DNA of 64,000 nt from an uncultured Ruegeria sp. (GTDB lineage: Bacteria; Pseudomonadota; Alphaproteobacteria; Rhodobacterales; Rhodobacteraceae), in assembly GCF_947497005.1 (NCBI RefSeq), contig NZ_CANMFF010000013.1, positions 89,062 to 153,061 on the forward strand, given 5' to 3'. This document shows, one piece after another, positions 9,008 through 30,611 of this stretch; the first letter of the stretch is position 1; each line of letters starts with the position of its first letter. The translations under genes were made by a program, and so were the position numbers. The notes under the pieces are model-generated. The model worked only from the letters and a program-made list of their open reading frames with translations, ran no database searches and was not told the origin of the DNA.

Positions 9008-10258
9008 ATGGCCCAAATCAACTCTCTACTGCTCGAGCAAGTCCGCGACCGGTTTGCTCAGGTCGATCACTGCCCGCAGCAGGGCCCGCGTATCTTCTTC
9101 GAAAACGCAGGCGGTGCGCTGACGCTGAACACAGTCGTAGACACGTCGCAGGCTTATGCCGCGATCCCTGACAATCAGGGGCGCGAGAATTCCGGCAGTC
9201 ACGAGCTGGTGCGCGTGATCAACAAGGCCAAAGAAGACATGGCGGTGTTCATGAATGCGCCGGGAGGGCAGTTCTTTGTCGGTGAAAGCGGCACCGAGTT
9301 GTTGTTCCGGTTGATCATGAACGCCTGTCTGGGAGCGGGTGCGGGCGTTGTTCTGGGATCAACTCTGGAACATCCGGCCACACGTTCGGCTTGTGACCGT
9401 TGGGCGCGCATTTCCGGGCAGACCCATGTGTTGATACCGCACGATGATGCGACCGGCACGGTCACCGCCGAGGCGTATACCGCTGCTGTCACGCCCGATA
9501 CCAAGGTGGCTACGATCCTGCACACCTCGCCGGTGACCGGCATGGGTGTGGATGTCGCAGCCGTTTCTCAGGCCATTCGCGCGGTGGCTCCGGACTGTTT
9601 CATTATCGTTGATGGCATCCAGCACGCAGCGCATGGTCGGATCGACCTGACGGCCTATAACGTCGACGGGTACGTGGTCTCGCCTTACAAAGTATTTTCG
9701 CGCCATGGGTACGGCGTTGCGTGGATCTCCGGCCGGTTGACCGGGCTGGAGCATAATGCCCTGATCGACGGCCCGGCGGATAATTGGGAAATGGGCACCC
9801 GCGATACCGGGGCTTATGCCACAATGTCGGACGTGGTCGGCTATTTTGAATGGCTAGGCAGTCAGGTCAGCGACGCCACTGACCGCCGTGCCAAATTCGT
9901 GGCGGCGGGTGAGGCAATCCATGCGCAGGAAAAGGCGCTGACCGATGCGATGATTCATGGCACCGGCAACCTGCCGGGTCTGGCCGAGATGGAGAAAGTG
10001 ACCATTCTGGGCGGCGTCGACAACCCGGCGCGCGAAGGCCTGGTATCGCTGCGTGTTGCCGGCGTGCCTTCGGTGGATGTGGTCAAACAGCTCAACGAAC
10101 AGTGCATCCGCACCCATCTGCGCAAGGCGGATCACTATTCCGGCAACGTCCTGACGCCGCTTGGTATGGACAGCTGCGTACGCGTTTCGATGTGTCACTA
10201 CAACAGCGTCGCCGAAGTTGCGCAGTTTCTGGGCGCAATGAAAACCATCGCCGCCTAA
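9008..10258 (+). CDS. Class-V PLP enzyme, cysteine desulfurase-like family (copy 1)
   Basis: A 416-residue fold-type I PLP enzyme. FFENAGGALTL near residue 30 and VDGIQHAAHG with the cofactor aspartate precede the Schiff-base lysine K228 in SPYKVFSRHGYG. It resembles the SufS/isopenicillin-N-epimerase-like group usually annotated as cysteine desulfurase family protein, but the region where SufS carries its persulfide cysteine reads IRTHLRKADHYSGNVL, without that cysteine. A lyase, racemase or aminotransferase role is therefore more likely than sulfur mobilisation. It is followed after 26 bases by a DMGDH-type flavoprotein, and a close paralogue lies at 19084. Substrate unknown. Confidence 0.8.
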   Translation: MAQINSLLLEQVRDRFAQVDHCPQQGPRIFFENAGGALTLNTVVDTSQAYAAIPDNQGRENSGSHELVRVINKAKEDMAVFMNAPGGQFFVGESGTELLFRLIMNACLGAGAGVVLGSTLEHPATRSACDRWARISGQTHVLIPHDDATGTVTAEAYTAAVTPDTKVATILHTSPVTGMGVDVAAVSQAIRAVAPDCFIIVDGIQHAAHGRIDLTAYNVDGYVVSPYKVFSRHGYGVAWISGRLTGLEHNALIDGPADNWEMGTRDTGAYATMSDVVGYFEWLGSQVSDATDRRAKFVAAGEAIHAQEKALTDAMIHGTGNLPGLAEMEKVTILGGVDNPAREGLVSLRVAGVPSVDVVKQLNEQCIRTHLRKADHYSGNVLTPLGMDSCVRVSMCHYNSVAEVAQFLGAMKTIAA

Positions 10259-10284
10259 GGCGTTCACAGGAAGAGGACTCCCTC

Positions 10285-12748: not shown

Positions 12749-12777
12749 GCCGCAGATCCCAATTCGGGATTTGCGGC
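12749..12777. terminator. Bidirectional hairpin between convergent genes
   Basis: GCCGCAGATCCC and GGGATTTGCGGC form a 12-bp stem with one G-T pair around a five-base loop (AATTC). It lies between the flavoprotein stop and the convergent LysR stop. There is no strong T-run, so termination efficiency is uncertain. Confidence 0.55.
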
Positions 12778-13703
12778 TATGTTATGTGAAACCCGCTTTC
12801 GGGCAGTTTGCACCATTCTGACAGCAATTGCGCAACCTGAAAGATTGGATCGCCTTCCTCCACATCCTCAGACCTGAGAACAGCATGCCATGGAACTGAG
12901 ATTCCGTCTTTTGTCACACTGGCCCCAACGATACGACCTTCCTTCAGCGCGGACTGAACGGCCCAGCTTGACAGAACACTTGTGCCAAGGTCTGAGGCAA
13001 CCAGTTCAACGATCGCTTCGGGCAGTTCGACTGTGGCCGCCCATTTCGGATAGCTGTCAGTGGGGCGGTACAGCAGCGCGAATTCGCGATCCGGTTCGGG
13101 CACTTTTGTATAGGTGATGAAGGGCTCACCAGCGACATCGGTGCCTTCAACGTATTCTCGTCCCGCCAGTCGGTGTGTGGGCGGCATGATGTAAAGCAAT
13201 GGGTCTTCGAACAGTTTCATGGTTTTCAACCCGGCCTGCGAAACGTTGCCGGACGTGATCGCAATGTCGAGATGCCGGTTCAGCAATCCGGTCAGTGGAT
13301 CGCTTCGCGCACCGGCCATGATCTGAATGTCGATCCCGTCGGTATGTGATTTCATGAACTTGATGAAAGACGGCAACCAGCGGTAATTGCTGTAGGCTTC
13401 GACGGACAGGCGCACGACGTGCTGCACATTGGCATTCATGCGGCGCACGTCCTCTTCGGCGCGATGAAGATCAGTCAGAATACGCTCGGCCACAACAGCC
13501 ATGTAATCGGCCGCCGGCGTCTTGCGCAGTTTCTTGTGCATCCGGGTGTACAAAGGCACATCCAGCCGACGTTCCGCTTCGCGCAGGCGGTGGGACAAGG
13601 CCGAGGGCGTCACCCCAAGCTTCTTGGCCGCATCGGTGATACGACCGGTTTCATTGATCGCCTGAATCAGTTGCAGGTGACGCAGGTCAAGCAGAGGTTT
13701 CAT
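12777..13703 (-). CDS. LysR-family transcriptional regulator
   Basis: A 308-residue LTTR: the N-terminal winged helix is LRHLQLIQAINETGRITDAAKKLGVTPSALSHRLREAERRLDVPLYTR, followed by a periplasmic-binding-like effector domain. It begins MKPLLDLRHLQ at the ATG at 13703. It is divergent from the class III aminotransferase gene (106 bases apart), the normal arrangement for LysR control of a catabolic operon. It probably activates the aminotransferase-ALDH-SelA-like-DUF4392-class-V operon. The inducer is unknown. Its 3' end faces the flavoprotein gene across a hairpin. Confidence 0.9.
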   Translation of the reverse strand: MKPLLDLRHLQLIQAINETGRITDAAKKLGVTPSALSHRLREAERRLDVPLYTRMHKKLRKTPAADYMAVVAERILTDLHRAEEDVRRMNANVQHVVRLSVEAYSNYRWLPSFIKFMKSHTDGIDIQIMAGARSDPLTGLLNRHLDIAITSGNVSQAGLKTMKLFEDPLLYIMPPTHRLAGREYVEGTDVAGEPFITYTKVPEPDREFALLYRPTDSYPKWAATVELPEAIVELVASDLGTSVLSSWAVQSALKEGRIVGASVTKDGISVPWHAVLRSEDVEEGDPIFQVAQLLSEWCKLPESGFHIT

Positions 13704-13809: not shown

Positions 13810-15201
13810 ATGAACGTTGACGCCAGACGCGCCATCGAACAGGACAAGGCACATCACGTGCATCCTCAATCGAATTTGCGACAGCATTCCGAGAACGGTC
13901 CGATCATGATCACCCATGGCAACGGGGTCTTCATCTACGACAGTGAAGGGCGTGAGATCATTGACGGATTTTCTGGCCTGGGCTGTGTGTCGCTGGGCTA
14001 TCACAATGAGCGGCTGTCAAATGTTGCGAAACGGCAGATGGATGTGTTGCCCTTTGCGCCCACCTTCTACAACCGCTCTCACCCGCGCGTCGCGGAACTG
14101 GGTGAGCGCCTGATCGGCATGGCGCCCAAGGCGAAAGATGGCAGCGACATGAACCGGGTGATGTTCCAATGCTCGGGGTCCGAGGCGAATGACACCGCGA
14201 TCAAGTTGTTGTGGTATACAAATACCGCTCGTGGCGAGCCGGACCGACGCAAGATCATTGGTCGGGTGCGGGGCTATCATGGGAACACGGTTGCGACTGT
14301 GTCGCTGTCGGGTCAGCCCCATATGCATGCGAAATTTGGACTTCCTTTGCCAGATTTCAAACACACCGAGCTACCAAACTATTATCGCTTTCATATCGAT
14401 GGCGAGAGCGAAGAAGAATTCTCGGCCCGGATGGCGGAAAAGTTTGAGGAATTGATCCTCGCCGAAGGCCCTGAGACCGTGGCGGCCTTCTTTGCCGAAC
14501 CAGCGATTTCAGGGGGTGGCGCGTTGATGCCTCCCGAAGGCTACTGGCGCGAGATGCAGGCGGTTCTGCGCAAATACGACATCAAGTTTCTGGCCGACGA
14601 GGTTGTTTGCGGTTTTGGCCGGACCGGTAACATGTGGGGGTCGCAGACCTGGGGACTCGAACCCGACATGATTTCCTGCGCCAAGGCTCTGTCGGCCGCG
14701 TTCTTCCCGATCTCGGCCCTGATGTTCAAGGACGAGATGTATGCCGACATGATGAAGAACTCGGACGAGGTCGGTACTTTTGGTCACGGCTATACATATG
14801 CGGGCCACCCGGTCGGGGCCGCTGTGGGATTGGAAGCGCTGGATATCTATGATGAGATCGATCTGGTCGGCCATGTCCGCAAGGTTTCCACGCGGTTCCT
14901 CGAAAAATGCCACTCTATGGCTGACCACCCGCTTGTGGCCGAAGTGCGCGGTGTCGGGCTGTTCTGTGGATTTGAGTTGATGAAGGGCGCAAAAAACCGT
15001 GAACCGTTCGATCCCTCTTGGAAAGTGGGTGAGCTTGTGCAGAACTTTGCTCATGATCGGGGTCTCTACCTGCGGGCGATTGGCGACCGGATGAGCTTTA
15101 TGCCGCCGCTGATCATCAACGAGGATGAGATCGATATCGCGACTGAACGCTTCAAAGGTGCGTTGGATGATGCCTGGGCGGTGGTTCGCACGAAGATCTG
15201 A
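13810..15201 (+). CDS. Class III (omega-amino acid type) PLP aminotransferase
   Basis: A 463-residue fold-type I aminotransferase. Motifs: DGFSGLGCVSLGYHNERL at the N-terminus, CSGSEANDTAIKL for phosphate binding, FLADEVVCGFGRTG with the cofactor aspartate, and ISCAKALSAAFFPISA with Schiff-base lysine K292. It belongs to the taurine/beta-alanine/GABA-pyruvate aminotransferase group (InterPro class III). The product would be an aldehyde, and an aldehyde dehydrogenase follows 105 bases later, a classic pair for amine-to-acid conversion. It is the first gene of the operon controlled by the divergent LysR. The amine donor is not determinable. Confidence 0.88.
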   Translation: MNVDARRAIEQDKAHHVHPQSNLRQHSENGPIMITHGNGVFIYDSEGREIIDGFSGLGCVSLGYHNERLSNVAKRQMDVLPFAPTFYNRSHPRVAELGERLIGMAPKAKDGSDMNRVMFQCSGSEANDTAIKLLWYTNTARGEPDRRKIIGRVRGYHGNTVATVSLSGQPHMHAKFGLPLPDFKHTELPNYYRFHIDGESEEEFSARMAEKFEELILAEGPETVAAFFAEPAISGGGALMPPEGYWREMQAVLRKYDIKFLADEVVCGFGRTGNMWGSQTWGLEPDMISCAKALSAAFFPISALMFKDEMYADMMKNSDEVGTFGHGYTYAGHPVGAAVGLEALDIYDEIDLVGHVRKVSTRFLEKCHSMADHPLVAEVRGVGLFCGFELMKGAKNREPFDPSWKVGELVQNFAHDRGLYLRAIGDRMSFMPPLIINEDEIDIATERFKGALDDAWAVVRTKI

Positions 15202-15306: not shown

Positions 15307-16791
15307 ATGACAACACACCTGGAACCGAAACTGCCCGATGCGGGTCTGGCTGGAAGTTACATAAACGGTACCTGGCATTGGCCCCAAGGGCGGCTGGTGG
15401 TCGAAAACCCCTCGCGCCGCGTTCCGATTTGTGAGGTCGGTCGCGGCACGTCAACCGAAGTGGACCTTGCCGTTGCTGCCGCCCGAGCCGCGCTGCCAGC
15501 GTGGCGCGCATTGGCCGCGAGCGAGCGTGGCAAGCTGTTGACGGAACTCGGCCGTCGTCTGGTAGAAAACGCCGAAGAAGTGGCCCGCGTTTTGGCAGCG
15601 GAAAGTGGAAATGCCATCAAGACCCAGTCGCGGGGCGAGGCAATGGGGGCTGCCGGGGTTTTGAAATATTATGGGGGTGTCGCGGTCGAGCAAAAAGGCG
15701 AGACCCTGCCGCTTGGACCCGGCCTGTTCAGCTATTCCACCCGAGAACCACATGGTGTTGTGGGCTCGATCATCCCGTGGAATTCGCCCCTGCAGCTGGG
15801 TGCAGTGAAGATTTCGATGGCACTGGCGACCGGTAATTGCCTGGTGCTGAAACCGGCTGAAGATGCGCCGCTGGCGATCCTGAAACTGGCTGAGTTGGCT
15901 GATGGGCTGGTCCCGCCGGGTGTGTTCAACGTTGTCACCGGACTGGGCGAAGAGGCGGGTGCGGCCTTGGCTGCACATCCCGGCGTGGACAAGGTGTCTT
16001 TCACCGGCTCAAGCGAAGTTGGCAAGCTGATTGGCAAGGCCACTGCCGACCGTATCGCCAAGTTGACTCTGGAGCTGGGCGGTAAATCTCCGACCATCGT
16101 CTTCCCGGACGCCATCACGGATGGACGCCTGGATGGCACCGCGCAACAGGTGGCCAACGCCATGCGCTTTGCCCGTCAGGGTCAAAGCTGCACCGCCGGG
16201 TCGCGTTTGTTCGTACACAAGGATATCTGGGATGTATTAATGCCCAAAGTGGCTGAGAAGTCAGCGGCATTGAAGGTCGGCGATGCGCTGGATCCCGACG
16301 TGGACATGGGTGCGGTCGTTAATGCCGAACGGTATGGCGAAATCCGCGCTTATGTGGCCGAGGCGGAAGCACAAGGTGCGACATTCCTGATCGGAGAAAC
16401 CCCGAACGAAGACCCGGATGGTTTCTGTCCCAATCCTACTATTCTCACTGGAATCGGCAACAATTGGCGGATCGCGCGGGAAGAAGTATTCGGGCCGGTC
16501 ATGGTCGCCATCCCTTTCGAGACCGAAGAGGAAGTGATTGCCATGGCCAACGATACTCACTACGGGCTGGCCGCGTTTTTGTTTACCCGTGACATCAGCC
16601 GGGTCACCCGCTTGACCCGCGCCATCGACGCTGGTTGGATTCAGGTTAACCAAGGCGGCGGGCAGATCCCCGGCATGTCTTATGGCGGCACCAAGCAATC
16701 TGGTATGGGCAGCGAATACTCAATCGAAGGCGCGCTTGAGTCTTATACGTACCGCAAATGCGTCACCATCAATATCGAGGATGGCACGTGA
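15307..16791 (+). CDS. NAD(P)-dependent aldehyde dehydrogenase
   Basis: A 494-residue ALDH superfamily protein of usual length. IPWNSPLQLGAVKISMALATGNCLVLKP is the cofactor-binding segment, FTGSSEVGK follows, and E256 (LELGGKSPTIVF) and the catalytic cysteine C295 (RQGQSCTAGSR) are in place. It should oxidise the aldehyde made by the upstream aminotransferase to a carboxylate. SD GAGGAGAACAGGG lies before the ATG. Its stop overlaps the next gene's GTG start (GTGA). Which aldehyde it uses is unknown; betaine-, semialdehyde- and indole-type ALDHs share these motifs. Confidence 0.92.
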   Translation: MTTHLEPKLPDAGLAGSYINGTWHWPQGRLVVENPSRRVPICEVGRGTSTEVDLAVAAARAALPAWRALAASERGKLLTELGRRLVENAEEVARVLAAESGNAIKTQSRGEAMGAAGVLKYYGGVAVEQKGETLPLGPGLFSYSTREPHGVVGSIIPWNSPLQLGAVKISMALATGNCLVLKPAEDAPLAILKLAELADGLVPPGVFNVVTGLGEEAGAALAAHPGVDKVSFTGSSEVGKLIGKATADRIAKLTLELGGKSPTIVFPDAITDGRLDGTAQQVANAMRFARQGQSCTAGSRLFVHKDIWDVLMPKVAEKSAALKVGDALDPDVDMGAVVNAERYGEIRAYVAEAEAQGATFLIGETPNEDPDGFCPNPTILTGIGNNWRIAREEVFGPVMVAIPFETEEEVIAMANDTHYGLAAFLFTRDISRVTRLTRAIDAGWIQVNQGGGQIPGMSYGGTKQSGMGSEYSIEGALESYTYRKCVTINIEDGT

Positions 16792-18050
16792 GTTCGGACC
16801 GTTTCGGTAATGCAATAGATCCAAGCGTGGGTTATGCCCGTGGCACACTGCTGAGAGGTTCAGCGGATGAAGTGCGCAGGCTGGCCCAGGCTGGCCGCGT
16901 TGCTGCCGATTTCGTCGCCCAAAACGGCGTTGACAAGATCGCCATCTGCACAGGTAATCTGCGGTTCTATCCCGCCAAGCCGGACGATTTGACCGTGTTG
17001 TGTGAAGAATGGATCGGTCCGGGCCTGTTTGGTGAAGAGCTACGTCAGGCGGCAATTTTTCATCTAGGCGGGCAAGGGCACGAGGCGGCGGCAGTGATCA
17101 ACAGAACAAGTGCGGGTATCGTGGCAACGGTTCTGGCCCACAGTGATGCCACGCCAGTTCTGTCCCTTGTGGCACCAGGTGATCGCAGCCATGCTTCGGT
17201 TTTGCGCGGAGCGCGATTGGCGGGCGTGTCAGTGCGTGAGGTTTATGATCTGGCCGCAGTGAAAAAGGCATTGGTTGAGGACAACCCGGCGCTGTTCGTG
17301 ATCACCCCGGTGACTTCGGAGCTTTCTGTGCTGAACGATGACCTGATCAGAAATGCCGCCGCAGCAGGAAAGAACTCGGGGTGTGTGGTGTTTCTCGACG
17401 ACGCCTATGGTGCGCGATTCCGTCCGGTATTGATGGGCGGTGCGCCGTCGCTGTCGCTTGGCGCGGATCTGGTCATAACAAACGCCGACAAGGCCGGACT
17501 GTCTGGTCCGCGCGCTGGGGTGCTCTGCGGGGAAACCGAGGCGCTGATCCCGGTACAAGCCAAAGCCAGTGAGTTGGGAATGGAAGCCCGCGCCCCTGTT
17601 GCCGTTGGCGCAATGCGCAGTCTGCAGGGCTTCACGCCCGATCTGTTGCTGCAAGAGGCCCAGGATGGTCGGGATCTGGCTGATGCGCTTGAGGTCGCGC
17701 TTGGGGTCTCGCGTATCACGCGTTCGGCTTTAGGTCCGAAGATTGACGAACAGGACGCGACGGAGGTGGTTCTGAGTATGGCTGCCGCTGACAATACAAA
17801 TCTGGTCCCGGCCGAGGTGACCGCGGTAATCGGTATGCTGATGTTGCGTGACAAAGGGATTGTGACGGTCAACACCCATGGCCAACCTGGCGGGCGGGTC
17901 TCGATCCGGCTGAAACCGACCTCGGGCGCGGTGGCACGGGCGGGGGGCGCTGCTGCGTTGGCAGATTGTCTGGTGTCGGCGATGCAAGAAACAGCGGATC
18001 ATCTGCATGACAAAGCTTGGATCTCAGCAACTCTGTTTGGAGAATTGTGA
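16788..18050 (+). CDS. SelA-like fold-type I PLP enzyme
   Basis: The start is likely the GTG at 16788, overlapping the ALDH stop as GTGA (420 residues); the ATG at 16758 lies inside the ALDH gene. The active-site segment LVITNADKAGLSGPRAGVLCG places a Schiff-base lysine at K235 and closely matches the SelA / D-glucosaminate-6-phosphate ammonia-lyase pattern (DKxxxGPxAG). VVFLDDAYGARF supplies the pyridine-nitrogen aspartate. A selenocysteine role is unlikely: no selB, selC or selD is nearby, and the context is catabolic. It ends directly against the DUF4392 gene (zero-base gap), so the two probably act in one pathway, perhaps on a D-amino acid or as an ammonia-lyase. Function unknown. Confidence 0.72.
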   Translation: MSSDRFGNAIDPSVGYARGTLLRGSADEVRRLAQAGRVAADFVAQNGVDKIAICTGNLRFYPAKPDDLTVLCEEWIGPGLFGEELRQAAIFHLGGQGHEAAAVINRTSAGIVATVLAHSDATPVLSLVAPGDRSHASVLRGARLAGVSVREVYDLAAVKKALVEDNPALFVITPVTSELSVLNDDLIRNAAAAGKNSGCVVFLDDAYGARFRPVLMGGAPSLSLGADLVITNADKAGLSGPRAGVLCGETEALIPVQAKASELGMEARAPVAVGAMRSLQGFTPDLLLQEAQDGRDLADALEVALGVSRITRSALGPKIDEQDATEVVLSMAAADNTNLVPAEVTAVIGMLMLRDKGIVTVNTHGQPGGRVSIRLKPTSGAVARAGGAAALADCLVSAMQETADHLHDKAWISATLFGEL

Positions 18051-19064
18051 ATGACCAACTCTGCCTTGATTTTGCGGTTGGACAACCGGCTGGACCATTT
18101 AGTGAATATTGATATCGGCGAACGCGGTGTCGAGCATTTGTTTGAGGCCGCCCGCGCCTTGCAGGGCGAGTCGCTGGTCGGCGCGGCGGCTGACGCATTA
18201 CTGGCTGTTCCCGAAGGCGGGATGGTGGTAATGACCACCGGCTCGGTTTCGCGCGCATGGATCACGCCTGAACTGGGCGAGAATGATGGCCCTTCAGGTG
18301 CGGCGGCGATAGCGCGGGCTTTGGTTCTGGCGCGTAACGCAACTTGCGTGATGCTGTGCGAAGAGACATTGTTGCCCGCCATCCGCAACACCTGTCAGGC
18401 AGCCGGGCTGTTCCCGGTGACGCTGGAGCAGGCTACCGTCGCGAAGACGGACAAAAGCCTCGCTACGATTGTCATGCTGCCTTTTGCTACGGAGGATGAA
18501 AGTGGGCAGGAGCAGGCCAAAGCACTTCTGTCAAACCTGAAACCTGACCTGTTGTTTTCGACCGAAAGGGTGGGGCGCAATGAGCTCGGTGTTTATCACT
18601 CCATGCGTGGTATCGATTATGGGATGGGACGCGCGCGTGTCGATGCCCTGTTCGATTTGGCAATGAAACGCGGCGTTCCCGTTATTGCCGTCGGGGACGG
18701 CGGCAATGAGATCGGCATGGGCAGGGTTGCTGACCATGTTAAAACCCATGTGCCTTATGGCGATGTTTGCCAATGCGGATGCGGTGGTGGGATAGGCGCG
18801 GTAACCGGTTGTGACGTGCTGGTGACGGCGGCCTGTTCCAATTGGGGCTGCACCGCAATTGCGGCAGCCATGGCCGCCCGTGCTGGTGACGAAAAACTGC
18901 TTCACACTCCGGAACGCGAGGCTCTGTTGCTGGACACTATGGTCGCCAATGGCCTGATCAATTCCACGCATGGCATCGTCGACGACAGCGTCGACGGTTT
19001 CCCGCGCCAAAGCCATATTGCGGTGACCGAGCTTTGCCGCACGATTGTAAGCCGCGCGCTCTGA
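18051..19064 (+). CDS. DUF4392 protein, D-glutamate cyclase-like
   Basis: A 337-residue protein matching the DUF4392 / D-glutamate cyclase C-terminal domain pattern, with VIAVGDGGNEIGMGRV near residue 220, VVMTTGSVSRAW in the N-terminal third, THVPYGDVCQCGCGGG and VTAACSNWGCTAIAAA. Mitochondrial DGLUCY homologues convert D-glutamate to 5-oxo-D-proline. The gene starts at the base after the SelA-like stop and is 19 bases before the second class-V PLP gene. Its presence hints at a D-glutamate- or lactam-like intermediate in this pathway. The biochemical role here is inference. Confidence 0.75.
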   Translation: MTNSALILRLDNRLDHLVNIDIGERGVEHLFEAARALQGESLVGAAADALLAVPEGGMVVMTTGSVSRAWITPELGENDGPSGAAAIARALVLARNATCVMLCEETLLPAIRNTCQAAGLFPVTLEQATVAKTDKSLATIVMLPFATEDESGQEQAKALLSNLKPDLLFSTERVGRNELGVYHSMRGIDYGMGRARVDALFDLAMKRGVPVIAVGDGGNEIGMGRVADHVKTHVPYGDVCQCGCGGGIGAVTGCDVLVTAACSNWGCTAIAAAMAARAGDEKLLHTPEREALLLDTMVANGLINSTHGIVDDSVDGFPRQSHIAVTELCRTIVSRAL

Positions 19065-19083: not shown

Positions 19084-20343
19084 ATGATCCAGAATAACTC
19101 CGCCCTGATAGACGCCATCCGTGACCGGTTCGCGCATGTGGACAACTGCCCGTTTCAGGGCGAGCGTATCTTTTTCGAAAACGCTGGCGGCGCACTGACG
19201 TTGAAGTCGGTTGCCGAAACTTCGGCCTTCTATGCCGCGATCCCGGACAATCCGGGGCGCGTCAACCCGGCAGGACAAGGCACACAGAACGTGATCAACA
19301 AGGCCAAGCAGGACCTGGCCGTTTTCATGAACGCCTCAAGCGGGCAATTTTTTGCGGGCGAAAGCGGCACCGAGCTTTTGTTCCGCATGATCCGCACAGC
19401 TTGCCTAGTTGCCCCCAAAAGCACCAAGGTGATCGGGTCGTCCATCGAACACCCGGCGACTCGCAGTGCCGCGCGCCGCTGGGCCGAGATTGCAGAGTTG
19501 GACTATGTGAACGTTCCCCATGATGATGACACAGGCTTGGTCACGGCCGAGGACTATGCCGAGCTGATGACCCCGGATGTCGCGGTGGCGACGATTCTTC
19601 ATGCCTCACCCGTGACGGGCATGGGCATGGATGTGGCAGCAATTTCGGCGGCAATCCGCGCTGTTGCACCGGATTGCCTTATCATCGTGGATGGCATCCA
19701 ACACGCGGCCCACGGACAGATGGATATCGATGCCTATGACGTCGATGGTTATGCAATCTCGCCCTATAAGGTGTTTTCGCGCCATGGCTACGGCATCGCG
19801 TGGATATCGGATAAGCTAAGCGCTTTGCCGCATGATATGCTGATCAACGCCCCTGCGACGGGTTGGGAATTCGGCACGCGCGACGCCGGGTCTTACGCGA
19901 CCGCGTCGGATGTGGTGTCTTATTTCGACTGGCTGGGCGGAGAAGTGTCCGACGAGACCGATCACCGCAAACGGATCGAGGCGGCAGGTCGCGCCATTCA
20001 CGCCTATGAGACACACCTGACCAATACCGCCATCAATGGCACCGGCAACCTGCCTGGGCTGTGCGACATGGATCATGTCACTATTCTGGCTGGTGCTGAC
20101 AACCCTGCGCGAGAAGGGCTGGTGTCCATCGTGGTCGAGGGCAGAGCATCCGAAGACGTGGTCGACGTTCTGAATCAGCAAGGCATCCGCACACATACCC
20201 GCAAGGCCGATCATTACTCGGGTAACGTTCTTGATCCGTTAGGTCTGCTGGATTGCATCCGCATCTCGTTTTGCCATTACAACACCGAACAGGAAATTGC
20301 TCGTCTGCTGGCTGCGATCAAGGAGCTGGGTAAGGAATGCTGA
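19084..20343 (+). CDS. Class-V PLP enzyme, cysteine desulfurase-like family (copy 2)
   Basis: A 419-residue paralogue of the gene at 9008, colinear along its length: same N-terminus (IFFENAGGALTL), same VDGIQHAAHGQMDIDAY block, Schiff-base lysine K229 (ISPYKVFSRHGYG), and the same IRTHTRKADHYSGNVL segment without a desulfurase cysteine. It ends the aminotransferase operon, 19 bases after DUF4392, and faces a convergent DMGDH-type gene. Two such paralogues flanking one operon suggest gene duplication and specialisation towards related substrates. Reaction unknown. Confidence 0.8.
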   Translation: MIQNNSALIDAIRDRFAHVDNCPFQGERIFFENAGGALTLKSVAETSAFYAAIPDNPGRVNPAGQGTQNVINKAKQDLAVFMNASSGQFFAGESGTELLFRMIRTACLVAPKSTKVIGSSIEHPATRSAARRWAEIAELDYVNVPHDDDTGLVTAEDYAELMTPDVAVATILHASPVTGMGMDVAAISAAIRAVAPDCLIIVDGIQHAAHGQMDIDAYDVDGYAISPYKVFSRHGYGIAWISDKLSALPHDMLINAPATGWEFGTRDAGSYATASDVVSYFDWLGGEVSDETDHRKRIEAAGRAIHAYETHLTNTAINGTGNLPGLCDMDHVTILAGADNPAREGLVSIVVEGRASEDVVDVLNQQGIRTHTRKADHYSGNVLDPLGLLDCIRISFCHYNTEQEIARLLAAIKELGKEC

Positions 20344-20367: not shown

Positions 20368-22782
20368 TCAGCCGCGCATCCGTTCATTGCCCGGATCGTA
20401 TAGCGGACGCAGGCTTGCCTGTGCCTGAACAGCTTGTCCGGCGACAATCACTCGGTAGTATCGCGCGGCAAGCGCGGTCATCGCCATTCCTTCAGGTCGG
20501 GTTACATATCCTAAACCCACGGCTCCACCAACGCTCCAGCCATAGCTGGCCGAGGTCAGGCGTCCGACGATCTGACCGTCACACAAGATCGGCTCTTTCC
20601 CGAAGACCAGCGGTTCAGGGTCGTCCAGCCTGAAGGAAAGCAAGCGGCTTGAAGCTCCTGTCGCTTTGCGGGCCTCGATTGCGCTTTTGCCGATAAATTC
20701 GGTCGAAAAATCGCAGGCGAAAGTCAGGCCGCTCTCCACTGGGCTGTCAAAGGGGCCAATATCATGTCCCCAGTGCCGGAAACCCTTTTCGATCCGACAA
20801 CTATCCACTGCCATCCCGCCGCACAAACGCGGTGCATTCGGTGCAGCCATGATCGTCTCGAATGCATGCTGGGCATACTCGGAAGGCACATGCAATTCCC
20901 ATCCCAACTCACCGACATAGGTGATCCGCTGCGCCCGAATCGGCGCGTGCCCGATATGCAGCGCCTGCCAGGTACCAAACGGGAAGACGTCGTTCGACAG
21001 GTCAGTATCGGTCAGGTCCGTCAAAAACTCTCTCGCGCGTGGACCCATCACCGCCAGCGTCGTCTCGGCCGACGTTGCGTTCACGACCGAAGTTCCAGAG
21101 CCAAGTAACTGCGTTTTCAGCCAGTATTCGGTTTGCGGCTCGGCACTGGCAGAGGCCATGATCATGTAACGTGTATCGGTCAGGCGGGCGACAGTCACAT
21201 CCGCCTCGATCCCGCCTTGTCGGTTGAACATGTGGGTATAGAGTAAAACGCCCGGCGCAACGGCCATGTTGGCACCGCATAGCCGTTGCATCTGTGTCTG
21301 CGCGTCTTGCCCGTCGACAATGAAACGACCAAAGGTCAGGTCGATCAAGCCAAGATCCCCGCGCAGCGTCAAATGCTCGGTCTTCCAATCGTCGAACCAG
21401 GGCTCGTTCCCGAAACCATCCGTCATTTCGCGCCCGTAATAAAGGGGGCGTTCCCATCCATTGGCGCTGCCGAACTGTGCGCCTGCGCCTCTTAAATGGG
21501 CATAATAGGGCGTCCGGCGCAGCCGCCGCGCCTTGGTTTTGCGCAGATAAGGCCAATGCATCGCATAGGCATGGCCCAGCGTTTCCGCCGCTTTAGTGGC
21601 CGTATAACTGCGTGCATTCAGACCCGGCACGATGCGGCGGCTGTCCACATCGGTCAGGTCCGTTGTCATGTGACCGTTCAAGATCCACTCGGCCAGCGCT
21701 TTTCCGGCTCCCGGTCCATTCTGAATACCGGTCGAGTTGAAACCGGCAGCGACCCAGTAACCTGACACTTCCGGGACCGGCCCCAGATAGGGCTTGGCAT
21801 CCGGGGTAAAGCACTCCGGTCCGTTGAAGAACTTGCGAATGCCCGAGCTCGCCAGCGCTGGAACTCGCTCCATCGCTGCTTCGAGTATCGGGTGAAGGTG
21901 TTCTTCATCGCAGGGCAACTCATCGAATTCGAAAGCTTCGGGCAAGCCGCCCTTGGGCAACCACGGAGTGGCATTGGGTTCAGAGCAGCCGATCAGCAGT
22001 TTGCCTGCGTCTTCTTTGTAATAGGCGTATTCGTCCAACACCCGCAGAACCGGCAGGTCGCCGGTCACGCCTTCAATCGGGTCCGTCACTACATAATAGT
22101 GGTTGGTGTAGTGCAAAGGAATTTGCACGCCATGGGTCAAACCAAATTCACGCGCCCACATGCCGGTTGCATTGACCACATGCTCTGCCCGGACCAAGCC
22201 CTGTTCGGTTTCCACACCGGTAGCGCGGCCATTTTCGATAACCACACGGGTCACCTGCGTGTCTTCAAAAACCTGCACACCATGCATCCGCGCGCCCTTG
22301 GCCAGCGCTATTGTCGTGTCGATGGGGTTGGTATAGCCATCACCAGGAAACCAGAATGCGCCTTTCGCGTTTTGGGTCGACAAAAGCGGCCATCGATCCT
22401 GAGCCTCGGCCAGGCTGATCTCTTCCGCGCGCAGGCCGCAGCCATGGGCATAATCCACCTTGCGGCGCAGCTCTTCCATTCGGGCTTGGGTCAACGCCAG
22501 CGTCATCGAACCGTTGCGCTTGAAACCTGTGCTCTGGCCGGTCTCGTCCTCAAGGCTCTCCATCAAGTCGAGGCCGTATTTCGCCAGGGCAGACATGACC
22601 GGCACGCCCTGTGTTTCGCTGACCAGCCCGGCGGCATGCCATGTGGTGCCTGATGTCAATTTCTTGCGTTCGAACAGGGCTGCTGAACAGCCTGCTTTCG
22701 CCAGATGATAGGCGATGGCGCAACCGACGATGCCACCACCTATGACCGCAACCTGAACGTGGTTGGGATGAGGTTTTGCCAT
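20368..22782 (-). CDS. FAD-dependent oxidoreductase with GcvT domain (SARDH-like, paralogue 2)
   Basis: An 804-residue protein: GGGIVG Rossmann motif, LTSGTTWHAAGLV with covalent-FAD histidine H49, DAO domain to about residue 410, then a folate-binding GcvT-like domain with GGIEADVTVARL and ELGWELHVPSE. The Gly-Thr-Thr-Trp-His form and the aspartate in IEADVTV both match sarcosine dehydrogenase rather than DMGDH. It should demethylate a secondary N-methyl amine such as sarcosine. It is the last gene of a leftward set (MttB-like, paralogue 3, this gene) with gaps of only 3-4 bases, and it converges on the class-V gene. Confidence 0.88.
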   Translation of the reverse strand: MAKPHPNHVQVAVIGGGIVGCAIAYHLAKAGCSAALFERKKLTSGTTWHAAGLVSETQGVPVMSALAKYGLDLMESLEDETGQSTGFKRNGSMTLALTQARMEELRRKVDYAHGCGLRAEEISLAEAQDRWPLLSTQNAKGAFWFPGDGYTNPIDTTIALAKGARMHGVQVFEDTQVTRVVIENGRATGVETEQGLVRAEHVVNATGMWAREFGLTHGVQIPLHYTNHYYVVTDPIEGVTGDLPVLRVLDEYAYYKEDAGKLLIGCSEPNATPWLPKGGLPEAFEFDELPCDEEHLHPILEAAMERVPALASSGIRKFFNGPECFTPDAKPYLGPVPEVSGYWVAAGFNSTGIQNGPGAGKALAEWILNGHMTTDLTDVDSRRIVPGLNARSYTATKAAETLGHAYAMHWPYLRKTKARRLRRTPYYAHLRGAGAQFGSANGWERPLYYGREMTDGFGNEPWFDDWKTEHLTLRGDLGLIDLTFGRFIVDGQDAQTQMQRLCGANMAVAPGVLLYTHMFNRQGGIEADVTVARLTDTRYMIMASASAEPQTEYWLKTQLLGSGTSVVNATSAETTLAVMGPRAREFLTDLTDTDLSNDVFPFGTWQALHIGHAPIRAQRITYVGELGWELHVPSEYAQHAFETIMAAPNAPRLCGGMAVDSCRIEKGFRHWGHDIGPFDSPVESGLTFACDFSTEFIGKSAIEARKATGASSRLLSFRLDDPEPLVFGKEPILCDGQIVGRLTSASYGWSVGGAVGLGYVTRPEGMAMTALAARYYRVIVAGQAVQAQASLRPLYDPGNERMRG

Positions 22783-22786
22783 GGAG

Positions 22787-25204
22787 CTACCCCCTCAGCC
22801 GCTCGTTTTCGGGATCATAAAATGGCACAGCGGTCACAGTCGCATTGATTTGTACGCCCAGCACTTCGATCTGGTACACATCTCCTGGCTGTGCCGCCTC
22901 GGTCAGATAACCAAGTGCGATGCGTTTGCCGATGCGGAATCCGGTTCCACCGGAACTGACATAGCCCACAGGTTTGCCTTCGCGGCAGATCGGGTCCGAA
23001 GATAGCGTATCCGCGCCGTGACCATCCAAAACAAAGGCGGTGAAGTGATAGACCTTAGGCCGTTTGGCTTGCTCCAAAAACGCTTCGCGGCCGACAAAAT
23101 GGTTTTTCTTCTTGCTGACAAATCGGTCCAGCCCTGCATCAAACGTGGTGTATTCGATGCCGAAATCCGCGCCCCAACCATGATAACCCTTCTCAAGCCG
23201 CATGGCGTTCAGTGCATAGGAGCCGAATTCGACCATACCCTTTTCAACCCCCTGTTCCATGATTGCGGTGTAGACCGAAACCAAATCGGCGCTGCGAATG
23301 TGCAGTTCCCATCCCAGTTCGCCAACATAGGACACCCGAAGGGCAACGGCTGGCACACCGGCGACGGTGATTTTACGCACCGACATCCAGGGGGCAGCGT
23401 CTTTCGACAGGTCGTCCTGTGTGAGTGGCTGCAACACCTCGCGGGATTTCGGACCCATGACCATCAATGCGGCGTCAAATTCAGAGCCACGGATCAGGGT
23501 CAAGCCCTCATCGGGCAGGTATTGTGATAACCAGTCATGGTCGCGTTGATCGGCCAGTGTGGGTCCGCAAAGCAGATATTTGTATTCGTCCAGCCGCGCG
23601 ATGGTTGCCTCGGACCAGATTTTACCCTTGGGCGTCAACATATAGGACAGTTTGACCCGGCCAACCGGAGGCATCGCGCCACAGAATACATGGTCGAGGA
23701 ACTCAGTCGCCTTTGGTCCTTCAACCTCATACCGTGTGAACCCACCGTGGTCCATCACGCCCACATTGTCGCGCACGCCTTCACATTCGGCTTTGACGGC
23801 ATCGTGCCAAGCCTCGTGATGGAAACTCAGCTGGCCGTCATGCTTGATCTGGTCCGTCTGGAACCAGAATGCGCGTTCCCACCCTGCGATCTGACCGAAA
23901 ACCGCGCCTTTGGCCTTGAGCCTGTCATAAAGCGGTGTGGATTGTACCGGGCGTCCCGCTTTCCACAGGCGATGAGGGTAGGGGATCGCATACTGATGCT
24001 CATAGAGCTCGCTGGCCCGTTTGACGGTATAGTCGAAGGTCGCCCATTCCTCGCTGAAACGACGCGGGTCCCACATCGACATGTCCCATTCGGGTTCGCC
24101 TTCCGTGATCCATTCGGTCAACGTTTTGGCTGCCGCCGCCGAGTGGGTGATACCTACCGGGAAACAACAGGCGTGATAGAAGTTCGGCAGGCCAAAAGCC
24201 GGACCGCAAAGCGGCGCGCCATCCGGGCTGTATGGGATCGGGCCGTTCACGAATCGGCTGACCCCAGCTTCACCCAGCAACGGCACATGTTCCAACGCGG
24301 CCTCGAGAATTTCGGCGATGTCATCGACACTGTCGGGATAGAGTTGATTGGCAAAGCAATCCGGCAGCCCGTCCAGCCACGCCGGGCGACCTTCGTGACC
24401 GTAAGAACCCAAGAGCAATCCGTTCCGCTCGCGCCGCAGATAGTACATGATGTCCGGGTCGCGGATAAGAGGGAAGTTCTCGGGGTTGGCTTCAAGCTCT
24501 GGTAGGTTCTCGGTGACCAGATATTGGTGTTCCAACGTGACGACGGGCAGCTTCTGGCCGACCATTTCCCCGATTTGGCGACCGTAATAACCCCCGGCAT
24601 TGATGACGATTTCGCAGGTCACATCACCCTTGTCTGTTTGGACCAGCCACTCTCCGGAAGCGCGGCGTCGGATGTCGGTGACCTTGGTGAACCGCGCAAT
24701 CTGTGCGCCCCGATCACGAGCTCCCTTTGCCAATGCCTGTGTCAGCTGCGACGGGTCCACGTCACCCTCGTAGGGGTCGAGGATGCCGCCGATGATGCTG
24801 TCGCCCGAACTGAAGTAAGGGTGCATGTCATCCATTTCGGACGGGGTCAGCATCGCCATGTCATAGCCCAGCCCTTTGGAAATGCCGACCAGATGCAGGA
24901 ACAAGTCCATCCGTTCCGGCGTATGGGCAGGCCAGAACGCGCCGGTATGACGGTAGGTGATCGGGTAATCGACCTCTGAAGCCAGATCCTTGTAGAGTCG
25001 CCATGCATAATTGCCCGCCCGCATCCCGCTCCAGCTGTTGGCGTAAGTCGGGATATTGCCCGCTGCATGCCAGGTCGAGCCACTGGTCAATTCGTTCTTT
25101 TCGATTAGCAAAGTATCGGCGACGCCTGCCTTGGCCAGATGGTACAGGGTGGAGACACCAACAGCGCCGCCCCCGATGATTACTACTTTGGCTTGATTTT
25201 TCAT
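22787..25204 (-). CDS. FAD-dependent oxidoreductase with GcvT domain (DMGDH-like, paralogue 3)
   Basis: The ATG at 25204 (MKNQAKVVIIGGGAVG) is the sensible start; the ORF-track extension covers the end of the MttB gene. The 805 residues carry GGGAVG, LTSGSTWHAAGNI with covalent-FAD histidine H46, and a GcvT-like half with KGKIWSEATIARL and ELGWELHIRS. The Gly-Ser-Thr-Trp-His form and the glutamate in WSEATI match dimethylglycine dehydrogenase. It lies four bases from the MttB-like gene and four from paralogue 2, so a methyltransferase, a DMGDH-like and a SARDH-like enzyme form a possible three-step demethylation operon. Substrate not known. Confidence 0.88.
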   Translation of the reverse strand: MKNQAKVVIIGGGAVGVSTLYHLAKAGVADTLLIEKNELTSGSTWHAAGNIPTYANSWSGMRAGNYAWRLYKDLASEVDYPITYRHTGAFWPAHTPERMDLFLHLVGISKGLGYDMAMLTPSEMDDMHPYFSSGDSIIGGILDPYEGDVDPSQLTQALAKGARDRGAQIARFTKVTDIRRRASGEWLVQTDKGDVTCEIVINAGGYYGRQIGEMVGQKLPVVTLEHQYLVTENLPELEANPENFPLIRDPDIMYYLRRERNGLLLGSYGHEGRPAWLDGLPDCFANQLYPDSVDDIAEILEAALEHVPLLGEAGVSRFVNGPIPYSPDGAPLCGPAFGLPNFYHACCFPVGITHSAAAAKTLTEWITEGEPEWDMSMWDPRRFSEEWATFDYTVKRASELYEHQYAIPYPHRLWKAGRPVQSTPLYDRLKAKGAVFGQIAGWERAFWFQTDQIKHDGQLSFHHEAWHDAVKAECEGVRDNVGVMDHGGFTRYEVEGPKATEFLDHVFCGAMPPVGRVKLSYMLTPKGKIWSEATIARLDEYKYLLCGPTLADQRDHDWLSQYLPDEGLTLIRGSEFDAALMVMGPKSREVLQPLTQDDLSKDAAPWMSVRKITVAGVPAVALRVSYVGELGWELHIRSADLVSVYTAIMEQGVEKGMVEFGSYALNAMRLEKGYHGWGADFGIEYTTFDAGLDRFVSKKKNHFVGREAFLEQAKRPKVYHFTAFVLDGHGADTLSSDPICREGKPVGYVSSGGTGFRIGKRIALGYLTEAAQPGDVYQIEVLGVQINATVTAVPFYDPENERLRG

Positions 25205-25208
25205 CGAC

Positions 25209-26705
25209 TTAATTTTCCAGATGAATGGGCAGGCGTGCGCGCAGGGCGGTTTCGACCCCGGTGGGCAGATGAGAGGGTGTAGGCTGCGCTTCGATCTCTG
25301 CAACGCGGGCGATGGCGCGATCCCAAACCGTTTGTGCGCCGCTTTCAAGCCAATCATTGACACTCTGACGGTCGCCAAGTGAGGGATAGACGTATTCTTT
25401 CGTCATCAGGTCCAGCGTCTGAGCAGTGCCCAGGAAATGCCCTTCACCGGTCACCACTTTTTCAATCATGTCCAGATCGATAGAGTCTTCAAACATCTCG
25501 ACCCCACGCACCGTGCGCAGGATGGCCCCGCACATATCATTGTCGATTACCAAAGCCTCTTTACTGGCGGCCATGATCGACCCCAGCATTCCGACTGACA
25601 GATTGATCATGTCAGCCCCGCCTTGGGCGGCCAGTGCGATAGTATATCCCTTTTCGTAACCCGACTGCGCATCGACTGTTTTGGCGTCGGTCATGCCCGC
25701 CGATACTGTCGACGGCAGATCAAGGTTCAGCAGCAACTGCGCGGCGGCGGCATTGGCCACCGCTGCCTCGCCCGACCCGCCGGTCATCGCACCGGTGCGC
25801 AGGTCCGAGATGAAAGGCAGGAAAGCTAGAATGCAGGGAAAGCCCGGTTGCATCATGTTGACCAGCACCAGACCAGCCAGAGACTCTGCCAGACCTTGGG
25901 CCAGCGCACCGGCCAGTGAGGCTGGGCTGGTCGCGCCCGCTTGTGCCGCCGAGCAGATTTGCAACGGCATCCCCAGCCGCACGCATTCTCGCATCACGCC
26001 GCAGGCCTCTTCGGCCAGTGTCAGGGGCGGCACCACGTGGCAGACTGAGGCAAAGCAGAAAGGTTGCGTGCGAAACGCGCCTTCGCCCCCCAGGGCTTGG
26101 TCGAACATCCCGACGACGGGTTCTACATTGTCTGGCTCAAAGAAGCTGGTGCCAATTGGCTTCGAGGTTGCCTTCATCGCGGCAAAAGCGGTGTTAATAT
26201 CCAGCGTCAGCGGGTCTTGGAGATCACGTGCCACAACTGGGCGCAGGGAATAGTGAATACTGTCGCAGGCATCGACGATGCGCATCAGGCTGTACAGGTC
26301 CTGCAATGTACTGTCGCGAAACCTGTTTGTGGCCGCATCCAGAACCTGTACGGCGGCCCCACCAGTGCCGATATGCACGCGGCCACCGCCGATTTCGATT
26401 CCTCGATCCCGATTGAATCCAGGCAATTCGACCCTTTTACAGGCCCTTGCAAGCACATCTTCAACCAGACCGCGCGAAAAGGTGATGCGACCGCCTGCCC
26501 GCGCTGAGGCACCGTTTTTCAGGGCAAGATTATGAATATCGTTGGGTGCGCCGGATACACCGATCCGCTCCAGAATGTCGAAAGCCGTATTCGTGATTTG
26601 CGTCAGCTTGCCGTTATCCAACGGTTTGAAGCGTCCGCCAAATGGTGGAGCTGACATCTTTGGCGTCGCGGGATTGGCGAGCCTTTTGTTTCTTGTTCGC
26701 CGCAT
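25209..26705 (-). CDS. MttB-family methyltransferase, non-pyrrolysine (copy 1)
   Basis: A 498-residue COG5598 member from the ATG at 26705 (the ORF track begins two codons earlier at GTG). Motifs: FDILERIGV near residue 40, HIGTGGAAVQVLD, CHVVPPLTLAEEACGVM, SAAQAGATSPASLAG, ISDLRTGAMTGGSGEAA and DAKTVDAQSGYEKGY. The region where archaeal MttB carries pyrrolysine has no in-frame UAG. Characterised non-Pyl relatives (MtgB, MtpB, MtcB) demethylate glycine betaine, proline betaine and carnitine via a corrinoid protein, but no corrinoid protein is present here. It heads the leftward flavoprotein operon, so it likely performs or assists the first demethylation. The substrate is inferred to be a quaternary amine. 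Confidence 0.85.
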   Translation of the reverse strand: MRRTRNKRLANPATPKMSAPPFGGRFKPLDNGKLTQITNTAFDILERIGVSGAPNDIHNLALKNGASARAGGRITFSRGLVEDVLARACKRVELPGFNRDRGIEIGGGRVHIGTGGAAVQVLDAATNRFRDSTLQDLYSLMRIVDACDSIHYSLRPVVARDLQDPLTLDINTAFAAMKATSKPIGTSFFEPDNVEPVVGMFDQALGGEGAFRTQPFCFASVCHVVPPLTLAEEACGVMRECVRLGMPLQICSAAQAGATSPASLAGALAQGLAESLAGLVLVNMMQPGFPCILAFLPFISDLRTGAMTGGSGEAAVANAAAAQLLLNLDLPSTVSAGMTDAKTVDAQSGYEKGYTIALAAQGGADMINLSVGMLGSIMAASKEALVIDNDMCGAILRTVRGVEMFEDSIDLDMIEKVVTGEGHFLGTAQTLDLMTKEYVYPSLGDRQSVNDWLESGAQTVWDRAIARVAEIEAQPTPSHLPTGVETALRARLPIHLEN

Positions 26706-26787
26706 GAACACGTCCGTGGAGAGGAATTTTCCACAGCATCTTAGGAAGGTTAAAAAATTAGCTCAATTCCATTATTTGTAGATTTTG

Positions 26788-26857: not shown

Positions 26858-27445
26858 TCAGGAATCTGCAGTCTCGTTTCGGGGATGCCACTGTCTCGCC
26901 ACCGCGTCACAAATCTTCAGACAGTCCACCGCGCGCGCCGCGATCTGCTCCACGATTTCGGTCATGTTGTTTGGTTTCAGATAGAAGGCTGGCACAGGTG
27001 GCAGGATGATGGCGCCCATTTCCGCAGCTGCTGTCATATTGCGTAGATGAGCCAATGTCAGCGGTGCTTCGCGCGCCAGCAGAACCAAGGGCCGTCTTTC
27101 CTTGAGTTGGACGCCGGCCGCTCGGGTCAGCAGGTTATCGTCCAGACCATGCGCAATTGCAGCCAGCGAGCGCATGGAACAGGGCGCGATAATCATCCCG
27201 GATATCGGCACCGAACCGGACGCGATACTGGCCCCTATATCCGCGGTCGCGTGATGACGGGTCACCAACTGCCGCAATTCACCCAGAGCATCCAGGCCGC
27301 ATTCCTGCCCAAGTGTCAAAGTGGCGGCCGGGCTGACCACAAGGTCGGTCTCGATATCCGCCGACGCCAGCCGTCGTGCCACTGCAAGGCTCAATGCCGC
27401 GCCAGAAGCACCTGATACGCCCAATACAACACGGGTTCTTGTCAT
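26858..27445 (-). CDS. ubiX: Flavin prenyltransferase UbiX
   Basis: The real start is the ATG at 27445 (MTRTRVVLGVSGASGAA), overlapping the ubiD stop as ATGA; 195 residues, as expected. VLGVSGASGAALSLAVARRL is the FMN-binding motif, and IIAPCSMRSLAAIAHGLDDNLLTRAA plus VLLAREAPLTLAHLRNM are the signature of UbiX/Pad1. It makes the prenylated FMN cofactor that the adjacent UbiD needs. The pair is divergent from the ubiTUV operon across a shared FNR-type box, which points to ubiquinone synthesis under low oxygen rather than aromatic acid catabolism. Confidence 0.92.
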   Translation of the reverse strand: MTRTRVVLGVSGASGAALSLAVARRLASADIETDLVVSPAATLTLGQECGLDALGELRQLVTRHHATADIGASIASGSVPISGMIIAPCSMRSLAAIAHGLDDNLLTRAAGVQLKERRPLVLLAREAPLTLAHLRNMTAAAEMGAIILPPVPAFYLKPNNMTEIVEQIAARAVDCLKICDAVARQWHPRNETADS

Positions 27446-28986: not shown

Positions 28987-29004
28987 CGAAAGGGGCGGGT
29001 CGAA

Positions 29005-29018
29005 TTGACAACCGTCAA
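29005..29018. promoter_or_regulatory. FNR/FnrL-type binding site between ubiD and ubiT
   Basis: TTGAC-AACC-GTCAA is a perfect palindrome that matches the CRP/FNR-family consensus TTGAy-N4-rTCAA exactly. If class II (centred at -41.5), ubiT transcription would start near 29053, 24 bases before its AGGAGG ribosome-binding site, with TAGGAA at the -10 position. It is well placed to serve both divergent operons. Regulator identity (FnrL versus Dnr/NnrR-type) is inference. Confidence 0.75.
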
Positions 29019-29087
29019 GTCTTTGATGCCGGGGCGGCTTTAGGAATGCCCCACCGGTTCACTTTATTGAGACAGCAGGAGGTCTGT

Positions 29088-29630
29088 TTGTCCGATCCCC
29101 AAAACCCGATACCGCAATGCCCAGTCGTTATGGCAACCGCCCTGCGGTTTGTTCCGCTTGCACCTTTGTCAGTATCACTGACGGCGTTTTCAAGGAAGAT
29201 AACCCGGAAGCACCCGGACCTGTTCAACCGGCTCGGTGAATACAGCCGGGTCGCGTTTGTGCTCGACCCAACGGATCTACCGGTTGTCGTTCTCCTCGAA
29301 CCGAATGGTGGTGCGCCGAGGATAAGGCTGTGTCGTAGGCGCGTGGCAGGGGCTGCGCGAATCTCCGGTCCGCTGGCCGCGCTGCTGGGGCTGGTTCATG
29401 GTGCGTTTGACGGCGATGCCCTGTTTTTCTCGCGCGATCTGGTGATCGAAGGTGACACAGCCGCGGCTCTGGCCCTGCGCAACGCAATCGATGACGCGGA
29501 GTTGGATCTTGCGCACGAAGCGGCAGCGCTTTCCGGCCCGCTTGCACGACCTTTCGAGCAGCTCATCGCGTTTGTCGAACTCCGAACCGGCCTATGTCTG
29601 ACCCGGCCCGAGGACGCAGTCCAATGGTAA
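29088..29630 (+). CDS. ubiT: Ubiquinone biosynthesis accessory factor UbiT (SCP2 domain)
   Basis: A 180-residue SCP2-like lipid-binding protein (E. coli UbiT is 174). I prefer the TTG at 29088: AGGAGG stands five bases before it, whereas the ATG at 29046 in the ORF track would lie before the transcript start predicted from the FnrL box. The C-terminal half (GDALFFSRDLVIEGDTAAALALRNAIDDAELDL) is typical UbiT, including the FSRDLxIEGDT motif. UbiT is required with UbiU and UbiV for oxygen-independent ubiquinone synthesis, probably by binding the isoprenoid intermediate. Its TAA stop overlaps the ubiU ATG. Confidence 0.88.
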   Translation: MSDPQNPIPQCPVVMATALRFVPLAPLSVSLTAFSRKITRKHPDLFNRLGEYSRVAFVLDPTDLPVVVLLEPNGGAPRIRLCRRRVAGAARISGPLAALLGLVHGAFDGDALFFSRDLVIEGDTAAALALRNAIDDAELDLAHEAAALSGPLARPFEQLIAFVELRTGLCLTRPEDAVQW

Positions 29631-30607: not shown

Positions 30608-30611
30608 CAGG

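Follow-up and report, generated by a model that had tools for sequence, protein, structure and literature searches.

The window analysed here, a 64,000-nucleotide stretch of DNA from an uncultured Ruegeria sp. (contig NZ_CANMFF010000013.1, positions 89,062 to 153,061), contains two directly abutting genes that encode a SelA-like pyridoxal 5′-phosphate (PLP) enzyme and a protein of the DUF4392 family. The two genes are found together in marine bacteria, rhizobia and Burkholderiales, and they may constitute the core of an accessory pathway of amino-acid catabolism.

Organization of the locus

The SelA-like gene (16788..18050, plus strand) starts with GTG and encodes 420 amino acids, with best matches to the MJ0158 model TIGR03576 (1.8e-49) and to PDB entry 2aeu (7.6e-35). 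The base right after its stop codon is the start of the DUF4392 gene (18051..19064, plus strand; 337 amino acids; PF14336, the C-terminal domain of D-glutamate cyclase-like proteins or GLUCM-like_C, 1.3e-70), which leaves 0 bp between the open reading frames. Two genes precede the pair on the same strand: a class-III omega-aminotransferase (AT3; 13810..15201; PF00202 2.8e-83, PRK06105 5.4e-180) and an aldehyde dehydrogenase (ALDH) of the betaine-aldehyde-dehydrogenase-like type (15307..16791; PF00171 2.3e-143), whose stop shares 4 bp with the GTG start of the SelA-like gene. The class-V PLP enzyme AT5b, of the VC1184 type (19084..20343, plus strand; PF00266 4.2e-33), begins 19 bp past the DUF4392 end, and its nearest solved relatives are UstD and FGM3 (PDB 7mkv, 9.2e-22, and 9x4u, 7.1e-19). 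An earlier note on this DNA had described the gapless pair and its location in an aminotransferase-ALDH operon, and the coordinates bear out both points. The same note placed the pair between two class-V genes, which is true only loosely: AT5b belongs to the operon, but the second class-V gene, AT5a (9008..10258, plus strand; 66% identical to AT5b), is an associated gene outside the operon, 6.5 kb upstream and cut off from it by a FAD (flavin adenine dinucleotide)/GcvT demethylase gene and an opposite-strand LysR gene.

This LysR-type gene (12777..13703, minus strand; PF03466/PF00126) is divergent from AT3, keeps its position among related loci and is probably the regulator of the operon. On the other side, the demethylases closest to the pair (20368-26711) lie on the minus strand, convergent to the operon: two FAD oxidoreductase/GcvT demethylases, DMG1 (20368..22782) and DMG2 (22787..25204), both with PF01266 and PF01571, and a non-pyrrolysine MttB-family methyltransferase (25209..26711; PF06253 5.1e-104). 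The order is therefore LysR (minus) / AT3, ALDH, SelA-like, DUF4392, AT5b (plus) / DMG1, DMG2, MttB (minus). In a scan for promoters and terminators, promoters were at chance level and no usable signal was obtained.

A PLP enzyme related to MJ0158

The lysine K235 of the SelA-like protein lies in the motif NADKAGLSGPRAG, aligns with the DK..GPR motif of MJ0158 and would be the residue that forms the Schiff base with PLP. TIGR03576 is the sole significant NCBIfam match of the protein (the next model reaches 0.0018); the score of 168.8 bits lies under the curated cut-off of 304.45 bits, which places the protein in a related subgroup, outside the curated equivalog. The predicted fold also has 2aeu (MJ0158) as its best match (2.3e-21), with the SelA structures far lower (~6e-11). 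As the model is moderately confident (pLDDT 79, with low values near residues 49-80 and 236-239), no active-site detail has been taken from it. MJ0158 (PDB 2aeu, 2aev) is thus the nearest relative whether judged by hidden Markov model (HMM), by sequence search of the PDB or by the predicted fold. Both proteins share the HLGG, NRTS and DKxxxGPRxG motifs and the C-terminal arginine region, but they are only 27% identical, and the SelA-like protein has an extra conserved N-terminal stretch (DRFGNxIDPxVGYARG) and is encoded in bacterial catabolic operons. Across 39 distinct SelA-like copies, the residues K235, D204, H135, N105, R106, R210, R212, R370 and R374 are invariant, so that the PLP lysine, the aspartate and the putative carboxylate-binding arginine are retained in 39/39; the roles given to these residues are suggested by motif and position.

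SelA, the L-seryl-tRNA(Sec) selenium transferase, resembles it in the general scaffold of fold type I PLP enzymes and in a DK..GP motif around the lysine. Unlike SelA, the protein studied here gives no significant match to TIGR00474 or PF03841. In the tree, 19 true SelA sequences form a clade with 100/100 support, apart from the 29 SelA-like proteins and MJ0158, the latter on a long branch. The whole-genome search with TIGR00474 revealed no selA at E <= 0.001, and matches to selB in the genome are only below the cut-off, at the level of translation factors, with no true selB among them; this extends to the whole genome the previous remark that selenocysteine genes are not found nearby. Taken together, the HMM results, the structure matches, the tree and the absence of selA and of a true selB establish that the SelA-like protein is an MJ0158-related PLP enzyme and not a selenocysteine synthase. 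Members of this family are labelled "selenocysteine synthase" in four of the plasmid records inspected (H3, H5, H16 and H18), a label that is contradicted here; several public records are consequently in error.

The other relative to be considered is DgaE (TIGR01437), likewise a SelA-like PLP enzyme of catabolism, which acts as an ammonia-lyase. The match of the DgaE model to the SelA-like protein is not significant (E = 0.15), and, unlike the case of DgaE, no phosphotransferase genes are found near the gene.

The DUF4392 protein

The assignment of the second protein to PF14336 is clear (238.6 bits against a gathering score of 27.9). Its nearest structures, both by sequence and by fold (model match 3.5e-14), are those of TON_0340 (PDB 4fc5, 5gl2-5gl4), a protein in which six acidic residues hold the metals and which displays a Mn-dependent phosphatase activity that is very low, its natural substrate not being established (PMC5132392). 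All six metal-binding acids are shared: E77, D79, E172, D216, E220 and D315 align to E59, D61, E115, D157, E161 and D246 of TON_0340, and five of them are kept in 57/57 DUF4392 copies, while E77 is present in 56/57, the last copy having an alignment gap at this position. The two proteins differ in length (337 versus 268 amino acids), are ~26% identical over the structural alignment, and only the one in the window has a PLP enzyme as operon partner.

The second reference for the family is the mammalian D-glutamate cyclase (9030617O03Rik/C14orf159), a fusion of DUF1445 and DUF4392 which, as its report describes for the mouse enzyme, turns D-glutamate into 5-oxo-D-proline (PMC5339696). The DUF4392 domain is shared with the protein of the window, whose cluster lacks DUF1445 and for which an activity on D-glutamate is only putative. 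In divergent bacterial clusters, on the contrary, DUF1445 is encoded by a neighbouring gene: at locus L061 it directly follows DUF4392 and overlaps its stop by 4 bp, and it is also found within the clusters L030 and L035/L062. This arrangement strengthens the link to D-glutamate-cyclase chemistry and, by analogy with the mammalian fusion, gives the clearest hint of the reaction that might be carried out.

DUF4392 genes are also found without a SelA-like partner (L053-L058, L073 and L075). They lie near threonine/serine dehydratase and RidA genes, near arylmalonate-decarboxylase or racemase-family genes, or near UbiD; two are in tandem with tricarboxylate transporters, and TRAP (tripartite ATP-independent periplasmic) transporters flank others. 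The dehydratase and RidA genes, the racemase-family gene and the carboxylate transporters are consistent with amino-acid or lactam catabolism and with a PLP-lyase partner. A further case (L097/L100, G663:C2:20469-22364) is a single frame of 691 amino acids with two tandem DUF4392 domains, which parallels the two separate DUF4392 genes of rhizobia described below.

Conservation of the gene pair

Adjacency of the two genes, which the earlier note had proposed to look for in other genomes, is conserved well beyond this strain. An intact DUF4392 gene lies immediately 3′ of the SelA-like gene in 32 of 33 GTDB loci. In the remaining one, from a metagenome-assembled genome (L013:11264-11541), a decayed and shortened DUF4392 remnant with deletions and frameshifts is still in place, and the SelA-like frame stays open. 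The pairing is also present in all five positive genomes out of a 246-genome sample of the order, and in all eight plasmid regions opened, which belong to Bradyrhizobium, Sinorhizobium, Paraburkholderia, Caballeronia and one rhodobacterial plasmid. Two loci aside, the gap between both genes, measured with extrapolated starts, lies between -19 and +1 bp. Pairwise distances of the two proteins are correlated over 40 loci (Spearman 0.92), a value inflated by the shared ancestry of the hosts. Since the DUF4392 family occurs in only 7/289 sampled genomes of the class and nevertheless stands beside every SelA-like copy found, the adjacency is not due to chance.

The closest relatives, with 81-85% identity, are from Ruegeria. 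The pair is accessory, as it is found in 5/246 genomes of the order and is absent from 10/12 genomes sampled in the same genus. A phylum-wide profile search returned the window genome only; four candidates were scored per genome, and absence from this search is therefore uninformative. The open-access literature searched yielded no publication dealing with the pair, TIGR03576 or MJ0158.

Among rhizobial plasmids, those with the pair (L042-L046; H3-H14, H16, H17) belong mostly to soybean-nodulating strains, and one carries it near a type III secretion system effector gene. Either a soybean compound or the sampling could account for this bias. Many S. meliloti plasmids have other DUF4392 genes and not the pair.

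A constant core in changing surroundings

The ALDH gene is upstream of the SelA-like gene in all 33 GTDB loci and in the intact plasmid clusters, and the 4-bp overlap between them recurs in nearly all marine copies. The rest of the neighbourhood varies with the lineage. Most marine loci retain MttB, DMG2, DMG1, LysR and AT3 as neighbours, and AT5b is likewise kept in most of them. A 3-hydroxyisobutyrate-dehydrogenase-type gene, whose catalytic lysine is visible in the translations shown, precedes ALDH in L015, L019, L023, L027, L030, L032, L034, L035 and L061, and a TRAP transporter is also present in L030, L034, L035 and L061. The clusters of rhizobia and Burkholderiales read LysR, hydroxyacid dehydrogenase, ALDH, DUF4392A, SelA-like, DUF4392B; they include a polar-amino-acid ABC (ATP-binding cassette) transporter and lack demethylases. 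Bradyrhizobium japonicum USDA 135 has just the SelA-like, DUF4392B and transporter half, beside a transposase. The aldehyde could thus be supplied by alternative feeders (the class-III aminotransferase or the 3-hydroxyisobutyrate-dehydrogenase-type enzyme), and the importers alternate as well (TRAP, peptide-type ABC or polar-amino-acid ABC).

Given that these neighbours change between lineages, the constant core consists of ALDH, the SelA-like enzyme and DUF4392, with demethylation as a marine add-on. The tie between the pair and demethylation suggested by the earlier note is accordingly lost outside the marine loci, as the rhizobial and burkholderial versions lack demethylases.

The transporters were also considered as a source of information on the substrate, and this approach was dropped. 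The TRAP receptor of L034 has its best PDB match in 2pfy, a weak one (58.8 bits) that is barely above several others, 2vpn and 3gyy included, so that different receptor types are matched about equally weakly; the rhizobial ABC receptor matches generic amino-acid receptors. We take 2pfy to be DctP7, a 5-oxoproline-binding receptor, and 2vpn and 3gyy to be ectoine-binding receptors; the match to 2pfy is too weak to inform on the substrate.

Proposed pathway and alternatives

The reading we favour, to which we assign a probability of roughly 40%, is that the products of the two genes, a PLP lyase or racemase and a metal enzyme of the D-glutamate-cyclase type, are functionally linked and form the centre of an undescribed, accessory route of amino-acid catabolism. 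In such a pathway, the feeder enzyme would convert an amine or an alcohol into an aldehyde, and ALDH would oxidize it to a carboxylate, either an amino-dicarboxylate or one able to form a lactam. The SelA-like enzyme would then use PLP to act on the free alpha-amino acid, with alpha,beta-elimination/deamination as the most probable reaction and racemization as the next option. DUF4392 would catalyze a metal-dependent opening or closing of a lactam, of the kind known for D-glutamate cyclase, on the same intermediate, aided in some lineages by DUF1445 or by a second DUF4392 protein. SelA and DgaE work by elimination, and another DUF4392 gene lies between a threonine/serine dehydratase gene and RidA; by this analogy there is a weak preference for elimination over racemization. 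In the marine version, MttB and the two FAD/GcvT demethylases would first remove the methyl groups of an N-trimethylated precursor; a precursor of this type is likely because MttB-type enzymes of marine roseobacters, with a corrinoid partner, demethylate quaternary amines (PMC12478193).

Several points weigh against this proposal. The present evidence does not name the substrate, which ALDH, the aminotransferase and the class-V enzymes, being broad families, do not fix, and to our knowledge no reaction has been demonstrated for the MJ0158 family. The elimination role is drawn by analogy with SelA and DgaE, which are only remote relatives. No gene for a racemase or an oxoprolinase accompanies the pair in this cluster. 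The DUF4392 protein that has been assayed, TON_0340, showed weak phosphatase activity (PMC5132392), and in the available text of the report on the mouse enzyme the domain responsible for the cyclization is not settled (PMC5339696).

Among the alternatives, the one that survives best, although improbable, is a route through D-glutamate or a close homologue, in which the SelA-like enzyme would be a racemase or epimerase making the D-enantiomer and DUF4392, with DUF1445, a true D-glutamate/5-oxo-D-proline cyclase. It agrees with the DUF1445 genes found beside DUF4392, as in the mouse enzyme, with the TRAP or tricarboxylate transporters adjoining stand-alone DUF4392 genes and with 2pfy being the best match of the L034 receptor; yet this match is hardly better than those to the ectoine-type receptors and others, the clusters contain no oxoprolinase, racemization by a SelA-like enzyme is not established, and one cyclase step hardly explains two DUF4392 copies in rhizobia. 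Slightly less probable is that the pair is linked merely through the inheritance of an old operon, both enzymes catalyzing different steps of one broad pathway with no shared intermediate. The nearly constant adjacency of ALDH, which indicates that the whole block moves together, would fit this explanation; on the other side, the pair outlasts the changes of importer, feeder enzyme and demethylases, and a second DUF4392 gene is inserted between ALDH and the SelA-like gene. A phosphorylated amino acid as substrate, with a DgaE-type ammonia-lyase and DUF4392 as phosphatase, is quite unlikely: the Mn-dependent activity of TON_0340 speaks for it, as does the fact that DgaE, a SelA relative, uses a phosphorylated amino-sugar acid as substrate, but no kinase or phosphotransferase system gene is recognised in the clusters, the activity of TON_0340 is very low and without an established physiological substrate, and the match to the DgaE model is not significant. 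Finally, that the SelA-like protein is a selenocysteine synthase, as the automatic annotation of relatives would have it, or some other enzyme that depends on tRNA, is practically discarded by the profile searches, the genome content and the tree described above, and by the catabolic setting of the operon.

Returning to the linked enzyme pair, its specialised role in catabolism is well supported, since the outcomes of the phylogeny and conservation analyses, both of them proposed in the earlier note, are favourable: the SelA-like protein falls outside the true SelA clade, and the pairing extends to distant lineages. On sequence comparison, the case for a pair that is specialised and conserved is now stronger than when it was first made, and DUF1445 adds weight to the link with D-glutamate-cyclase chemistry. 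The compounds originally named (D-glutamate, 5-oxo-D-proline and N-methyl-glutamate) remain guesses, as no evidence identifies any of them as the actual substrate; D-glutamate/oxoproline is plausible. The more specific idea of an undescribed route with a novel reaction is a tentative one that we regard as doubtful. Here a PLP enzyme of the SelA fold, catalyzing that new reaction, and a metal enzyme of the D-glutamate-cyclase type would act on a single intermediate, either a lactam or a D-amino acid, and in marine bacteria a trimethylated amino acid, demethylated step by step, would feed the route. Other identities were considered and set aside. The literature search gave no connection to the homarine operon; betaine-lipid head groups, trimethyl-lysine or -ornithine and hydroxyectoine-type compounds have been contemplated on chemical grounds only, and none of them is selectable on the evidence.

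If this undescribed route is real, the MJ0158-like PLP group and bacterial DUF4392 would each acquire a first physiological role. The DUF4392 family, to which a mitochondrial enzyme of mammals belongs, spans from archaea to animals; both families are widespread and have no established bacterial role in the searched literature. The inseparable pair, with recognisable neighbours, importers and regulators, is present in cultured Ruegeria and in soybean rhizobia, which makes both functions directly testable.

Other genes in the window

The region beyond the LysR gene, upstream of the operon (9008-12702, plus strand), comprises AT5a and a third FAD/GcvT demethylase, which has no clustering homologue in the related loci and is perhaps an addition near this strain. 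Next to MttB, on the side distal to the operon, positions 26858-32764 contain UbiX, UbiD, an SCP2 (UbiT-like) gene, two peptidase-U32 genes (UbiU/UbiV-like) and NnrS, probably genes for oxygen-independent ubiquinone synthesis beside a nitric-oxide-related gene. A second MttB-centred cluster is located at 46151-56832 and comprises MttB, a class-III enzyme similar to glutamate-1-semialdehyde aminomutase, two FAD/GcvT demethylases, an amidase and a thiamine pyrophosphate enzyme of the Xsc/acetolactate-synthase-like type; it looks like a further operon for the degradation of quaternary amines.

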